From Acidovorax sp. A79 (GTDB lineage Bacteria; Pseudomonadota; Gammaproteobacteria; Burkholderiales; Burkholderiaceae_C), in contig NZ_AP028672.1 in NCBI RefSeq assembly GCF_041154505.1, forward strand, positions 5,558,501 through 5,622,500: a stretch of 64,000 bases of DNA. The letters are read 5' to 3'. Positions within the stretch are counted from its first letter, which is position 1. Each line of letters starts with the position of its first letter. A model generated the notes under the pieces. That model was not told where the DNA came from and searched no databases. It worked only from the letters and a program-made list of their open reading frames with translations. Of the stretch, positions 14,196-20,206 are shown piece by piece. Made by a program: the position numbers and the translations under genes.

Positions 14196-14242
14196 AAGGT
14201 GCCGATTTGGCTTGATTTTTTGCCGTAGCCGCACACCCCCAT

Positions 14243-14266
14243 CCGTTCGGGTTGAGCCTGTCGAAA
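14243..14266 (+). repeat. Single arm of the CCGTTCGGG...CCTGTCGAA repeat
   Basis: Same sequence type as the two arms of the hairpin at 22780-22857 (CGTTCGGG, TGAGCCTGTCGAA). A widespread proteobacterial intergenic repeat. Here only one arm is present, upstream of the methyltransferase. Confidence 0.6.
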
Positions 14267-14343
14267 CCATGCGCCCGCCTTGCCAGCCCCTGGCTCACCC
14301 CACCGCAAAACGCCATACCCACCGCATCCACCGCACCCACACC

Positions 14344-15072
14344 ATGACCCATCCCACCACCACATCCCCCTTCACCGACCCCGCCGCCGTCGCCCGCTAC
14401 GCCGAAGGCCCGCGCCGCAACGTGCCCGGCTACGACAGCCTGCTGCCCATGGTCCGCATCCTGCTGGCCGAGCGCGTGTCCGCCGACGGCCGCGTGCTGG
14501 TGGTGGGCGCAGGCGGCGGGCTGGAGCTGGAAGACATGGCGCTGGCGCACACCGGCTGGCGCTTCGACGGCGTGGACCCGAGCCAGCCCATGCTGGACCT
14601 GGCGGCGCAGCGGCTGCAAGGCGCGGGCGTGTCGGGCGACCGCGTGGCGCTGCACCACGGCTATGTGCAGGGCGCACCGGTCGGGCCGTTCGATGGCGCG
14701 ACGTGTTTGCTGACTTTTCACTTTGTGCCGCGCGAGGAGCGTGCGGCCATGGTGGCCGAGATCCGGCGGCGGTTGAAGCCCGGGGCGCCGTTCGTCGCGG
14801 TGCACCTGAGCGTGGCCGATGGTGAAGGTGCTGGCGGCGACGGCGGGGCAGGGGAGCGCAACCTGTGGCTGTCGCGCTATGCGGCATTTCAGGTGGCGTC
14901 CGGCATGGCGCCGGAGATGGCCGAGCGGGGGCGGGCCAAGGTGGCGGCCGAGCTGGCCGTGCTGACGCCACAAGAGGACGAGGCGATCCTGCGCGAGGCG
15001 GGGTTCGGCGATGTGCGGATGTTTTACATGGGGTTTGCGTTCAGGGGTTGGGTGGCAACGGCCGCCGAGTGA
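14344..15072 (+). CDS. Class I SAM-dependent methyltransferase
   Basis: 242 residues from ATG 14344. SAM-binding motif I VLVVGAGGGLELEDMA near residue 57, motif II FDGVDPSQPMLDLA, motif post-II/III LTFHFVPREERAAMV and LKPGAPFVAVHLS. Resembles small-molecule methyltransferases of the Methyltransf_12/25 type. Upstream in-frame extension to 14212 overlaps intergenic repeats and is rejected. The substrate is unknown, and the gene stands alone. Confidence 0.87.
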   Translation: MTHPTTTSPFTDPAAVARYAEGPRRNVPGYDSLLPMVRILLAERVSADGRVLVVGAGGGLELEDMALAHTGWRFDGVDPSQPMLDLAAQRLQGAGVSGDRVALHHGYVQGAPVGPFDGATCLLTFHFVPREERAAMVAEIRRRLKPGAPFVAVHLSVADGEGAGGDGGAGERNLWLSRYAAFQVASGMAPEMAERGRAKVAAELAVLTPQEDEAILREAGFGDVRMFYMGFAFRGWVATAAE

Positions 15073-15195
15073 CTGCTGAACGGAAGGCGGTCCTTGATCC
15101 CGGATGAACCGCGCCTTGCTGATCTCCATGCGGGTTTGCTGCAGCACCGGGCCAGCAGCCCCCGTACCAGCCAGCCGGCGTGGCACAAGAGCCCC

Positions 15196-16134
15196 TCAAC
15201 GCACAGGCGCCAGCGCCCACCGGTCCTTCGACGCCTTCACCAGAAAATCAATCACCGCCTTCACCCTGGCCGCATTGCGCCGGCCCGGTGACGACACCGC
15301 GTACAGCGTGTGCACGGTGCGGGACGCAAAAGGCGCCAGCACCTCCACCAACCGGCCTTGCGCCACGTCGGCCGCCGCGAGCGGGCTGGACAGCATGCCG
15401 ACCCCCGCACCGCCCACCAGCGCGTGGTGCACCAGGGCCGAACTGCTGGCGGCCAGGCGCGAGCGCACGGTCACCTCCAGCGGCTTGCCCTGTGCGTTGC
15501 GAAAGGCCCAGGTCACCGCCGGCCCCTGCGCGGTGTGCGTGACGGTGTGGTGCTGCTGCAGCTCGCTAGGCTCGGCGGGCGTGCCGTGCTGTTCCAGATA
15601 TCCAGGGGCCGCGTACAGGCGCCGCTCGAACCGGCCCAGTTCGCGCGCCACCACCAGGTCGCTGTGGCCCACGGTGGTGCGCAGCGCCACGTCGATGCCC
15701 TCCGTCACCAGGTCGGCCACGCGGTCATCGGCCAGCAGCTCCACCCGCAGCGCGGGGTAGCGCGCCTGCAGGTCTGCCAGGTGGGGCAGCACCAGCGCCT
15801 CGCAGATCTCCTGGCTGGAGGCCAGGCGCAAGGTGCCCGCCACCCGGCTGCGCCGGTCGGACAGCGATGCCCCGATGTCCTCCAGCTGCGCCAGCAAGGC
15901 ACGCGCTTCCTGCGCCAGCTCTGCGCCCTCGGGCGTGGCCGACAGGCCGTGCGTGGACCGGCGCAGCAAGCGCACGCCGTAGCCGGCCTCCAGCCGGTCC
16001 ACACCGCGCGCGACCACCGACACCGCCACATCCATCTCGCGCGCCGCCGCAGAAAACGAGCGCAGGTCGAGCGACCGCACCAGCCACCGCAGGTCGGCCG
16101 GATCGGGGAGGAAGGAGCGAGGTTCTTTTTTCAT
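15196..16134 (-). CDS. LysR-family transcriptional regulator
   Basis: 312 residues from ATG 16134 (MKKEPRSFLPDPADLRWLVRSL). Helix-turn-helix SFSAAAREMDVAVSVVARGV, then LysR effector domain (GTLRLASSQEICEALVLPHL, LVTEGIDVALRTTVG). Divergent from the tautomerase-cupin operon across 117 bp, with a palindrome in the gap. Probable regulator of that operon. Confidence 0.92.
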   Translation of the reverse strand: MKKEPRSFLPDPADLRWLVRSLDLRSFSAAAREMDVAVSVVARGVDRLEAGYGVRLLRRSTHGLSATPEGAELAQEARALLAQLEDIGASLSDRRSRVAGTLRLASSQEICEALVLPHLADLQARYPALRVELLADDRVADLVTEGIDVALRTTVGHSDLVVARELGRFERRLYAAPGYLEQHGTPAEPSELQQHHTVTHTAQGPAVTWAFRNAQGKPLEVTVRSRLAASSSALVHHALVGGAGVGMLSSPLAAADVAQGRLVEVLAPFASRTVHTLYAVSSPGRRNAARVKAVIDFLVKASKDRWALAPVR

Positions 16135-16170
16135 CGAGCGCGCCTTTGCGTGCGGAGCAAAAGCCATTAT

Positions 16171-16193
16171 CGCCACGGGCGGTTTCCGTGGCG
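16171..16193. promoter_or_regulatory. Candidate operator, 8-bp perfect dyad between LysR and tautomerase genes
   Basis: CGCCACGG (16171-16178) and CCGTGGCG (16186-16193) are perfect inverted repeats with a 7-bp spacer, 37 bp upstream of the LysR start codon and 58 bp upstream of the tautomerase. Position and symmetry suggest the LysR binding site. Confidence 0.45.
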
Positions 16194-16251
16194 GGGCGCA
16201 ATTTCTACAGTGAAGGCTCCTTCAACCCAATGCATTCAACAGGAGCCCTCC

Positions 16252-16650
16252 ATGCCCATCCTCAACGTCAAAGTGTCTGCCCAACGCACGCCCGAGCTGT
16301 CTGCCCGCATCGCAGAAACCCTGCTGGACCTGACCACCCGCGTGCTCGGCAAGCGGCGCGACCTCACGGCCGTGGCCATCACCTTTGTCGACCCGGCGGA
16401 CTGGTACATCGCCGGCCGGTCGCTGGCCGACCTGAAACAGTCGAGCTTCTACTTCGACGTCAAGGTGGTGGACGAGACCAACACCAAGGCCGAAAAGGCG
16501 CGCTACATCGCCGAGGCGTTCGCAGCCTTCGAGGGCCTGCTGGGCGCGCTGCACCCCGAAAGCTATGTCTATGTGCAGGACGTGCGCGCCACCGCGTACG
16601 GCTTTGGCGGCCGCACGCAGGAATACCGCCACCAGCATCCCGAGCAATAA
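16252..16650 (+). CDS. Tautomerase-family protein (4-oxalocrotonate tautomerase-like)
   Basis: 132 residues from ATG 16252, with AGGAG at 16241. The mature N-terminus would be Pro (MPILNVKVSAQ), the catalytic base of tautomerases. The protein is double-length relative to the classic 62-residue subunit and keeps the beta-alpha-beta pattern (TPELSARIAETLLDLTTRVL, AVAITFVDPADWYIAG). Probably tautomerises a keto/enol intermediate. It forms an operon with the cupin 57 bp downstream, under the divergent LysR. Confidence 0.88.
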   Translation: MPILNVKVSAQRTPELSARIAETLLDLTTRVLGKRRDLTAVAITFVDPADWYIAGRSLADLKQSSFYFDVKVVDETNTKAEKARYIAEAFAAFEGLLGALHPESYVYVQDVRATAYGFGGRTQEYRHQHPEQ

Positions 16651-16707
16651 GCGATCAAGCAATCAATCAAGCAAGCCATCGACCAATAGCTACCCAGGAG
16701 CACCGAC

Positions 16708-17175
16708 ATGACGATGACGACAACGAACAACCACCTTGCCGATGTGATCGTGGCCCAGACGCTGGAGCGTGCGGGCCTGGCCGACTGGATTCCTGAAGGC
16801 GAAGGCAAGTGGTCCCTGCCCATTCAGTTCCTTCCTGACGATGCCGGCTGGGTGGAACTGATGCGCCTGTCACCCGGCACGCGGCTGGGCCTGCACCGGC
16901 ACACGGGCGAGGTGCACGCCCTGACGCTGGCGGGTGAGCGCCGCCTGAACGACGGCCGCGTAGTGCGGCTGGGCGACTACATCCACGAGCCCGCCGGCAA
17001 TGTGGACTGGTGGGAGGCGACGGGTACCGAAGAGCTGCTTGTGCATGTGGTGGTCAAGGGCAGCGTGGAGTACCTGGGGCCGCACCATGCGGTGCTGCAG
17101 CGGATTACCACGGCGGATCGGCGGGTGGACTACCAACGTTGGTGCGACGCGGTGGGCGTGTCGCGGCGCATCTGA
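16708..17175 (+). CDS. Cupin-domain dioxygenase-like protein
   Basis: 155 residues. A single cupin barrel with metal ligands in LGLHRHTGEVHALTLAG (His, His, Glu, His) and a second motif GDYIHEPAGNVDWW. Resembles the 2,4'-dihydroxyacetophenone dioxygenase cupin family that cleaves carbon-carbon bonds next to a carbonyl with Fe. Second gene of the tautomerase operon; together they suggest degradation of an aromatic or keto compound. Confidence 0.82.
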   Translation: MTMTTTNNHLADVIVAQTLERAGLADWIPEGEGKWSLPIQFLPDDAGWVELMRLSPGTRLGLHRHTGEVHALTLAGERRLNDGRVVRLGDYIHEPAGNVDWWEATGTEELLVHVVVKGSVEYLGPHHAVLQRITTADRRVDYQRWCDAVGVSRRI

Positions 17176-17257
17176 TCGTGGCAGAGGCGGTCAGGACGGG
17201 GCAGGGAGCACGACCGTTGGCTGTTCACTATTCATAACTCCAAGTAGTGTCTGACGC

Positions 17258-18697
17258 TCATCTCAATGCTACTGAACGAAATCTTTCTGTTAAGAACTGC
17301 TCATGCGGATTTGCAACGCCATCCTTAATTTTGTTAAGCATTGATACCAAATCATCATCAACGATTGGAATCATAATTCCTCTTCCATCGACGTATGTGT
17401 CGTTACACCTTGCTAATAGTAGATCCATGTTATCTACCGATCTACACAAAAGCAAGCCAAATTTACCTCGATTAATTGAAAACCGCCCGGATAATTGGTC
17501 TATTTCGGGGTTTGCAACGTCGCGTGAGTAATTTTTGCATTCTACAAATATGAACTGAGCGGGGGTTTGGTAATTTGTGTGTAGTCGATGAAAGAATCCT
17601 GTATTTGCAGAGTTGTCAAATGTTATATCGATTCGCTTTCGTCCATCATGGATCTCTCTCTCTACTATCGGAGAGGTGACGTGGGGATAGAAGAGAAATT
17701 CCAGAATGCCAACGGCAAGTCTGTGGTACTTTGATGCGCTCTCTCCACCTGGTTGGATATTTCCAAGTCTGGAAATCAAATACTGTGAAATGGAAATCGG
17801 ATCCGCGTCGTTAAGTTCTTCATTCGAAATTGCCGTGGCCGTATTTTTGATCCAATCCTTGAAATCTCGAAATACCTCGGGATGAGAGCTTGTGAAGGAT
17901 GCGAGAAAGTTTTTTGAGTATTCCGATTCTGGTAACTCTTTTAAAGACTTTTTTGTGACATATGGGGTTCCATCATTGCGATATTGGACAAGGCGCGAAT
18001 AGTTTCGCAAATTCTCATGTTGCAAGTATTCCAGCACGAAATGGTTATAGTATTTTTGAGGAGTGTATTTTTTTGAGTAGGAAACGATGCCTTTTGGGGT
18101 TAGCAATATTTTTCGCCCTTCTATAACGAGCATTGATTCGTGTTGATTAATCCAGTTATGTGTGGTACGATCCCAAAAAAATCCAGATTGAATGTTTTCA
18201 TTTAACGCGATACCCCATAATTTGCATTGCTCTTGTGTGTATTTGACAAGATGGCCGCGAATTATGTTTGTGGTCATGTCTGATACTTTGTCTTTATCAA
18301 TTCCGTCGATAAAAAGACGAAAATCTTCCAAATCCTCCACAATCCCGGTGGCTACAGCCTCACTTTGAGCAATGCTATTGAATAGCTTTTGGCTGTCGAT
18401 GGAGCCAATCGCATTGCCACGAGGTCTGCCTATAGACAGGCCTAAGCACGTTTCATTGGGCTCATGTAGATAGTCGAAAAGAGCCCTTGCCTGGTCTTCT
18501 TCGCCGTCTCGAATAAGATTAATAAAAGCTTGAAAAAAACTTCGAAGCGTGCGGGTCGCATTCACAGACCATGAGTCCGAGCGGCAGCCTAGAAAAAATG
18601 GATCCACAAAAAGTGGAAGATCAACGTCGGTGTCTATGTCAACAAAGTCCAACTCAAATTGAGTAGATTCCAGTTTGAATCTTTCGCTGATTTTCAT
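17258..18697 (-). CDS. Orphan AT-rich gene: protein with C-terminal PD-(D/E)XK nuclease signature
   Basis: 479 residues. ATG 18697 was chosen because CAGGAAG lies six bases upstream; a longer in-frame start at 18736 has no site. The gene is strikingly AT-rich beside its GC-rich neighbours and uses A/T-ending codons, a sign of transfer. The N-terminal segment (residues 16-37) is acidic then hydrophobic: LDFVDIDTDVDLPLFVDPFF. The middle has no recognised domain. Residues 346-401 read EREIHDGRKRIDITF, FVECKNYS, EIDQLSGRF: Asp357, Glu386-Cys-Lys388 and Gln401 fit a PD-(D/E)XK nuclease of the Mrr/restriction-endonuclease type. No methyltransferase or second subunit is next to it. A solitary defence nuclease is plausible but unproved. 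Confidence 0.8.
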   Translation of the reverse strand: MKISERFKLESTQFELDFVDIDTDVDLPLFVDPFFLGCRSDSWSVNATRTLRSFFQAFINLIRDGEEDQARALFDYLHEPNETCLGLSIGRPRGNAIGSIDSQKLFNSIAQSEAVATGIVEDLEDFRLFIDGIDKDKVSDMTTNIIRGHLVKYTQEQCKLWGIALNENIQSGFFWDRTTHNWINQHESMLVIEGRKILLTPKGIVSYSKKYTPQKYYNHFVLEYLQHENLRNYSRLVQYRNDGTPYVTKKSLKELPESEYSKNFLASFTSSHPEVFRDFKDWIKNTATAISNEELNDADPISISQYLISRLGNIQPGGESASKYHRLAVGILEFLFYPHVTSPIVEREIHDGRKRIDITFDNSANTGFFHRLHTNYQTPAQFIFVECKNYSRDVANPEIDQLSGRFSINRGKFGLLLCRSVDNMDLLLARCNDTYVDGRGIMIPIVDDDLVSMLNKIKDGVANPHEQFLTERFRSVALR

Positions 18698-18844
18698 TTT
18701 TCTTCCTGTTGTTGAGTATGGGAAGCTGCTGCTCACGGCGTGAATTGAGTACCAGGGCGTAACTACGATTTAAAGCGATCCCTCGTTTTTCGTCTAAGAA
18801 AAAATCTCATCTTCGGAACGGCAACTGCGCGCAGCCACCATATC

Positions 18845-18865
18845 TTTGAACTAAATTCGTTCAAA
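18845..18865. promoter_or_regulatory. Perfect 7-7-7 palindrome upstream of the ROK gene
   Basis: TTTGAAC-TAAATTC-GTTCAAA is a perfect inverted repeat in the gap between the AT-rich orphan gene and the ROK regulator. It may be the operator of the ROK protein for the sugar operon. On the minus strand TTGAAC and TATGGT (16-bp spacer) could be a promoter for the orphan gene. Both roles are inference. Confidence 0.45.
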
Positions 18866-18958
18866 GTTCAGTCTTGCCCGGCCAAAGTAGACCGCATAGC
18901 ATCCCTGTCAAGCACCCACCCCCATGAGGTGCTGCACCACAACGACAGGAGACAAGCC

Positions 18959-20206
18959 TTGCCATCCACCCGCTGGAGTCACTGCGGCGCCGAAGACCTG
19001 GGCGTCTTGCAGACCATCTTCTGGTCCGCAGGCGCGTCGCGCAATGCGCTCGCGCAGCGCCTGGCGTATTCCAAGAGCAAGGCCAACGCCATGGTCGCGG
19101 CGCTGCTGGACGAAGGCCTGCTCGACGAGGTGGGCCTGCAGGAATCCTCTGGCGGCCGGCGGGCCGAAACCCTGCGTTTGAGCGAAACCCTGGGCGTGGT
19201 GATTGGCGCCGACCTGGGCGCGACGAGCATGCAGGTAGCGATCATGCGGCCCGACATGACCGTGCTGGCGCGGCACCGTGAGCCCACCGATGTGCGCCAG
19301 GGGCCGGGCGTGATTCTGGCGCGGCTGCGCGGGCTGATGCGGGAGCTGATGGCGCGCTGCGGGCTGGCGGCGTCGCAGGTCATTGCCATCGGCATGGGCC
19401 TGCCGGGGCCGGTGGATTTTGAAAGCGGCCAACTCGTCAACCCGCCGCTGATGCCCGACTGGGACGGCTTTTCCATCCGCGACTACCTGCGCGAGGCGTT
19501 TGCCGCGCCGGTGTTTGTGGACAACGACGTGAACCTGATGGCGCTGGGTGAGCTGTGGCGGCTGCAACGCAATCTGCCCAACTTCCTCGTCATCAAGGTG
19601 GGCACGGGCATTGGCTGCGGCATTGTGTGCCACGGGCAGGTGTACCGGGGCGCCAACGGGTCGGCCGGTGACGTGGGCCACATCTGCGTGGACCAGAGCG
19701 GGCCGCGCTGCCACTGCGGCAACCAGGGCTGTGTGGAGGCGATGGCGGCAGCACCCGCCATGGCGCGCATGGCGATGGAGGCCGTGGAGCGTGGCGAGAG
19801 CGCGATGCTGGCCGAGCGCCTCCAGGCCACCGGCACGCTGACCACCGAGGACGTGGCCCAGGCCAGCCGTGCGGGCGATGTGGCGGCCAACGCAATCATC
19901 CAGCGGGCGGGCAGCCTGGTGGGGCAGATGCTGGCGTCCATCGTGAATTTCTTCAACCCGTCGCACGTGTTCATTGCAGGGCGGGTGACGGACATGGGGC
20001 CGCTGTTCCTCGCGTCGGTGCGGCAGAGCGTGTACCACCGGTCGCTGGCGCTCTCCACGCGGCACCTGGAGATTCAGTACGCGCCGCTGGCCGACGATGC
20101 GGGGGTGGTGGGCGCGGGTGTGCTGGCCATGCAGCAGAGCTTGGCGCTGTCGCCGCGTGCCTCTTCTTCTGCGACCAAAGCCAATGCCGTGGGGGCCACA
20201 CGATGA
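18959..20206 (+). CDS. ROK-family transcriptional regulator (NagC/XylR-like)
   Basis: 415 residues from TTG 18959, preferred because AGGAGA lies seven bases upstream; GTG 18929 is in frame without a site. N-terminal winged helix (ASRNALAQRLAYSKSKANAM), then a ROK sugar-kinase-like fold: GADLGATS, FVDNDVNLMALGE, GTGIGCGIV, and the zinc motif GDVGHICVDQSGPRCHCGNQ continuing CVEAM. ROK repressors release DNA on binding a sugar or sugar phosphate. First gene of the ABC transporter operon; its TGA overlaps the ATG of the ATPase gene. Confidence 0.9.
   Translation: MPSTRWSHCGAEDLGVLQTIFWSAGASRNALAQRLAYSKSKANAMVAALLDEGLLDEVGLQESSGGRRAETLRLSETLGVVIGADLGATSMQVAIMRPDMTVLARHREPTDVRQGPGVILARLRGLMRELMARCGLAASQVIAIGMGLPGPVDFESGQLVNPPLMPDWDGFSIRDYLREAFAAPVFVDNDVNLMALGELWRLQRNLPNFLVIKVGTGIGCGIVCHGQVYRGANGSAGDVGHICVDQSGPRCHCGNQGCVEAMAAAPAMARMAMEAVERGESAMLAERLQATGTLTTEDVAQASRAGDVAANAIIQRAGSLVGQMLASIVNFFNPSHVFIAGRVTDMGPLFLASVRQSVYHRSLALSTRHLEIQYAPLADDAGVVGAGVLAMQQSLALSPRASSSATKANAVGATR

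Follow-up and report, generated by a model that had tools for sequence, protein, structure and literature searches.

A two-domain PD-(D/E)XK nuclease gene in a variable cargo slot of Acidovorax sp. A79 is predicted to be a one-gene defence

Sensing of foreign DNA and its cleavage can be united in one polypeptide, as in Shedu (SduA), for which a review describes an N-terminal clamp that senses DNA ends, whereupon the PD-(D/E)XK domain cuts (PMC12904381). At the level of genomic placement, the hotspot cDHS1 of Pseudomonas aeruginosa is reported to range in length from 1 to 224 kb, the median being 26 kb (PMC10250203). Here, we consider a PDC-M36A-like two-domain gene of Acidovorax sp. A79, delineated as an open reading frame (ORF) and by PADLOC and protein searches, which occupies positions 17258..18697 on the minus strand of a 64,000-nucleotide stretch of contig NZ_AP028672.1 (this whole stretch is called the window below) and encodes 479 amino acids (aa). 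We predict with reasonable confidence that it is a self-contained one-gene defence nuclease directed against phages or other incoming DNA, and the best reading is that of a sensor-nuclease whose mode of action resembles that of Shedu or of a type IV enzyme, although it passes the sequence tests of neither. This assignment is based on the two-domain anatomy, the invariant active site, the spread across classes, purifying selection and the occupants of the genomic slot, known defence systems among them.

The PD-(D/E)XK nuclease domain covers residues about 298-479 (17261..17806, minus strand). Residues D357, E386, K388 and Q401, numbered exactly as in a preliminary description made from the letters alone, are invariant in 71 of 71 sequences of our alignment, which places the codon of D357 at 17627..17629 and the codons of E386-C387-K388 at 17534..17542 on the same strand; the mutated motif in homologues, named in that description as a counter-sign, thus did not appear. 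A strict letter pattern of the nuclease motif is matched by 109 of the 120 listed relatives, and since eight of the 11 non-matching relatives belong to the same alignment, where D357, E386 and K388 never vary, the pattern is too strict at least for those eight. Structure comparison of the whole model by VIA-align revealed a restriction-nuclease fold for this domain, that of the FokI-type cleavage domain, while searches of solved structures by sequence, whether with the protein, the 71-sequence profile or the N-domain profile, returned matches at chance level only.

The N-terminal domain, the proposed sensor or gate, extends over residues 1-290 (17828..18697, minus strand) and corresponds to PF28123 of the homologues, including those that consist of this domain alone. 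As the whole-model search was filled by matches of the nuclease domain, the N-domain was folded and searched separately; its predicted structure (predicted local distance difference test score, pLDDT, 89.4) found no match in the PDB and no known enzyme fold. The N-terminal half had been called unrecognised from the outset, and neither the PDB nor a housekeeping enzyme, the match that would have spoken against defence, supplied it with a function. In 44 N-domains sharing 21-86% identity with the window protein, residues D26, E79, E124, D136, S139, D140 and K262 are invariant and D32 is kept in 43; the segment LPLFVDPFF takes residues 27-35, and a strict letter pattern of the domain is matched by 115 of the 120 listed relatives.

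Both halves fall within a family that is already catalogued as a PADLOC candidate with thousands of relatives and hence is not new: PDC-M36A matched over the two of them (E 7.5e-43 for PDLC04597 and 1.7e-21 for PDLC04598), and of the 7998 candidates scored in a protein search, 3819 were homologous at E<=1e-3. The suggestion of a new single-gene defence therefore holds with respect to its defence setting and fails with respect to novelty. The newly numbered Pfam domain PF28123 is assigned to the 120 homologues listed and was not reported by the Pfam scan for the window protein itself; no publication on the function of PDC-M36 or PF28123 was found in the open-access literature. The catalogue lists a second protein, PDC-M36B, for which no match was obtained in the same genome or in 27 homologue-bearing genomes, the model being silent in control genomes too, and no gene common to the homologue neighbourhoods was seen in a search for a possible partner. 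The family is spread across bacterial classes, and its presence is patchy: within the phylum 19 genomes out of 398 carry the gene, as do five out of 119 related genomes (this genome included in both counts), none of the five being another genome of the genus. In a tree of 24 copies the window protein groups, at support 100/99, with those of Xenophilus azovorans (Comamonadaceae) and Aeromonas lusitana (Aeromonadaceae), the latter two being closer to each other than to it (97/95). Since such similar copies occur in beta- and gammaproteobacteria, these relationships fit transfer of the gene between classes. Two truncated family copies (L030 and L031) stop after 60 and 57 codons, which is what repeated gain and loss would lead one to expect.

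The gene was recently acquired by this genome, where it gave one match when searched for. Its G+C content (GC) is 0.413, and 0.40 at third codon positions (GC3), against 0.666 in the window, and in a 500-bp profile GC falls below 0.55 solely in the bins starting at 17001-18501, in agreement with the aberrant composition reported earlier. The 479-aa ORF starts with ATG at 18697; with an alternative in-frame start, GTG at 18736, the protein would be 13 aa longer, and homologues begin MKIS- or VKIS-like instead. Where synonymous divergence (dS) could be estimated, comparison of the coding sequences suggests purifying selection: the ratio of nonsynonymous to synonymous divergence (dN/dS) is about 0.04 against both the Xenophilus and the Aeromonas copy (0.090/2.08 and 0.118/3.43), with dS near saturation, and dS was not computable for two further, more distant relatives. 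Scanning for promoters and terminators gave no signal above that of shuffled sequence. A toxin-antitoxin arrangement was considered and dropped, because the sole other ORF of at least 90 aa in the slot is an antisense one of 94 aa inside the gene.

The gene fills by itself a cargo slot of about 1.7 kb (17164..18843, unstranded), defined by the points where homology to congeners ends and resumes, and its borders are sharp. On the left lie tautomerase- and cupin-like genes and on the right a ROK-type regulator and ABC sugar-transporter-like genes, all named from reading of translations; the adjoining cupin-like gene (16708..17175, plus strand, also homologous to congeners) and regulator gene (18929..20206, plus strand) are both transcribed from the strand opposite to the nuclease gene. 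Thus, the earlier picture of a single gene between two metabolic operons is correct in that the gene stands alone and misses that in related genomes the same place holds other cargo, several defence genes among it. Besides this genome, 25 congeners match the right-flank regulator over a long stretch (L053-L077; one further genome, G003, with short fragments only was omitted), and both flanks were recognised in 17 of them, the others being set aside because the left flank was not found (L053, L063, L070), the contig ended (L072) or the left match stopped only at 9.8 kb of the window (L068, L069, L075, L076; filler GC 0.66-0.69). In all 17 the right homology begins at 18841-18861. Where congeners also have the cupin gene, the left homology stops at 17159-17168, coinciding with the cupin gene end (17159-17163) in four (L056, L058, L065, L066); in nine it ends with the methyltransferase-like gene (15055-15056), and in four at 14734-15047 (L059, L062, L073, L077). 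That gene (14212-15072) looks, from its translation, like a small-molecule type. A second, fragmentary copy of it stands beside the cargo after the cupin gene in L057, L060 and L073 (cupin match ending at 17163-17168), and its end looks as if it were a preferred place of crossover (window 15030-17175). An inverted repeat, TTTGAAC...GTTCAAA (18844-18868), lies exactly at the right border before the ROK-type regulator, of which it is possibly the operator, and congener homology begins inside it.

The congener filler measures 1.1-4.4 kb and mostly comprises one to three genes, with GC of 0.42-0.61 (at most 0.55 in 16 of 17). The 17 slots supplied 22 filler ORFs for PADLOC scanning and L053 one more, smaller or flank-crossing ORFs being excluded, and seven slots gave a specific match at E<=1e-5. 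Named defence systems account for four of them, namely RT UG17 with SLATT (L060), RT UG5-nitrilase (L061), a fused AriAB (L066) and two SpbK/ThsB-like TIR genes (L057), and PADLOC candidates for the other three, namely the NTPases PDC-S49 (L071) and PDC-S59 (L058) and PDC-M34B together with a Swt1-type HEPN domain detected by Pfam (L056). Generic models alone were matched in two slots (cold-shock in L054, SEC-C in L073), and no PADLOC match at this threshold was found in eight (L055, L059, L062, L064, L065, L067, L074, L077), in five of which the scanned ORFs were also devoid of Pfam matches above cut-off (L067 lay outside the Pfam scan). Slot L062 carries three dCTP-deaminase-like genes according to Pfam, a class which occurs in phage defence. 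Candidate one- or two-gene defences are offered by L055:10894-11685, L059:1845-2693, L064:10667-11809, L065:1351-2682, L074:10464-11895 and L077:4048-5265. BLASTP at 1e-4 disclosed no cargo common to any two slots or to the window, the cross-slot matches being confined to flank-crossing ORFs. Different cargo is present at this site even in the same-species genome G119 (L073), compared here at the slot, so that cargo is turned over within a species. When the ORF starts of the 17 slots were read, neither an integrase nor a transposase was noticed; a transposase-like ORF was met in the omitted L053. We infer that cargo is exchanged via homologous recombination through the flanks.

Neighbourhoods of the homologues provide a second view of the genomic setting. 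Bulk scanning of 91 ORFs (at least 90 aa, up to two per side) at 23 homologue loci yielded 179 PADLOC families at 1e-5, compared with seven from 54 ordinary ORFs of the window, figures which are inflated by related models and are to be read as a contrast rather than a rate. Among the 25 families listed are PglZ, RT UG5-nitrilase, type II methylases, a type II nuclease, PDC-S05, PDC-S22, PDC-S41, AbiO, Nhi and PDC-S02; mad2, mad3 and mad8 were discounted as generic because the ordinary window ORFs match them too. Pfam added a BsuBI/PstI-type nuclease, Mrr_cat and a DarT1-associated antitoxin, together with integrases, resolvases, a relaxase and plain metabolic genes.

Each half of the protein is a module; the first behaves like a unit of recognition and the second like a cartridge for cutting, and evolution has recombined both with other partners. 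In one set of N-domain relatives examined, 38 of 40 proteins consist of this domain only, and the domain is also found joined to other nuclease types; N-only relatives reside on small plasmids, one of them (L033) on an Acinetobacter schindleri plasmid with a macrolide-resistance gene, where it adjoins helix-turn-helix (HTH) and ImmA-like genes. Conversely, among 120 listed relatives of a protein with a swapped front, 20 are fusions of the nuclease cartridge to a cytosine-5 (C5) methylase. The methylase part is whole in 17 (P0184-P0188, P0204, P0206, P0212, P0217, P0229-P0231, P0238, P0246, P0248, P0260 and P0268) and short or late-starting in P0189, P0202 and P0220. All 17 whole fusions keep GxGG, the S-adenosylmethionine (SAM)-binding motif, and 13 of them, four being near-identical, have lost PCQ, which contains the catalytic cysteine and is kept by the remaining four. 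The cartridge is therefore often paired with a methylase look-alike, which, judged by its motifs, probably cannot methylate, and the fusions devoid of PCQ may possibly be pseudo-methylase sensors. It is conceivable, if rather doubtful, that PF28123 is a new invasion-sensing and perhaps enzymatic fold gating interchangeable nucleases, that the FokI-like cartridge is gated elsewhere by dead C5 methylases which keep the SAM-binding motif, and that the two together represent a class in which sensing, and not the marking of DNA, spares the host.

With no methylase to protect the host DNA, a nuclease needs some control that prevents it from cutting there. The absence of a methylase beside the gene, noted already at first inspection, is borne out by the PADLOC scan, in which no DNA methylase model matched any of the 54 other window ORFs (at least 120 aa, chosen by codon GC), and the nuclease protein itself has no fused one. 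In the mechanism we propose, the PF28123 N-domain would hold the FokI/Shedu-like nuclease inactive as long as the cell is healthy; on meeting a sign of invasion, which could be a structure or a modification of DNA or else a molecule made by the phage, it would release the nuclease, and such gating by sensing would make a methylase unnecessary for sparing the host. Gating, signal, DNA as the substrate and protection are what we infer from the arrangement described. That the signal is modified phage bases bound by the N-domain, with the C-domain cutting beside them as in a type IV modification-dependent enzyme, appears somewhat unlikely, given that Mrr_cat scored 12.4 bits (E 0.17) against the curated Pfam cut-off of 21 bits and that no modified-base reader among solved structures matched the N-domain, although a missing match proves nothing.

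Several observations weigh against the sensor-nuclease interpretation. The sensory role of the N-domain is suggested by where it lies in the protein, by its occurrence on its own and by analogy, and its invariant acidic residues could equally mean an enzyme. The latter idea, an N-domain acting, for example, on nucleotides or nucleic acid, with the nuclease as one of several partners and the lone plasmid-borne domains working by themselves, draws on the conservation of D26, E79, E124, D136, D140 and nearly always D32 across such divergent domains, on the prevalence of N-only proteins and on the existence of other nuclease ends; we still consider it unlikely, as the structure search found no known enzyme fold and conserved acids can serve metal or partner binding too. 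No match was obtained among 50,697 phage records, and full-length copies on plasmids are few (three of 41 records at >=80% coverage). As to the slot, ten of 17 lack a specific PADLOC match, two of these having generic ones, three of the seven specific matches are candidates only, and the counts are uncorrected for the background rate of random low-GC segments. A mobile-element gene serving plasmid or prophage conflict instead of host defence proper is decidedly improbable: the plasmid location of N-only relatives, the integrase, resolvase and relaxase domains near homologues, four homologue loci within viral contigs and the full-length PHROG phrog_27295 speak for it, whereas no mobile gene was seen beside this copy in the window ORF list, and the slot has several phage-defence systems among its other occupants.

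Should the nuclease indeed be gated by the N-domain, the gene would represent a further methylation-free way of telling self from foreign DNA. Only one gene is involved, its product is modelled with confidence, the active site does not vary and the genomic case for defence is clear, so that it is directly testable; the slot, being small, is also a convenient site in which to seek further one-gene defences. What is added here to the catalogued family, namely the argument from the slot, the modularity in both directions and the outcome of the N-domain fold search, was not encountered in our searches of the open-access literature, which is a weak test of novelty.

In comparison with known systems, the window protein resembles Shedu in being a single protein with a PD-(D/E)XK nuclease domain and differs in that its N-domain belongs to another family. 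The model of SduA/DUF4263, the Shedu domain, is absent from its Pfam and PADLOC matches up to E 10 (filters remove most above 0.1), and with Mrr_cat below its cut-off the protein is, by sequence models, a member of neither Shedu nor Mrr. The cognate methylase, fused or adjoining, of type II restriction-modification was found neither in the protein nor among the 54 window ORFs. The nuclease fold is nearer to FokI and BspD6I than to Shedu, from which pair the protein is set apart by having no identified FokI-type recognition domain and no methylase found adjoining. The slot, in turn, is akin to the core defence hotspots of P. aeruginosa, which are reported to hold varying defence cargo between fixed core genes (PMC10250203), and differs from cDHS1 in its size of 1.1-4.4 kb and its content of mostly one to three genes.
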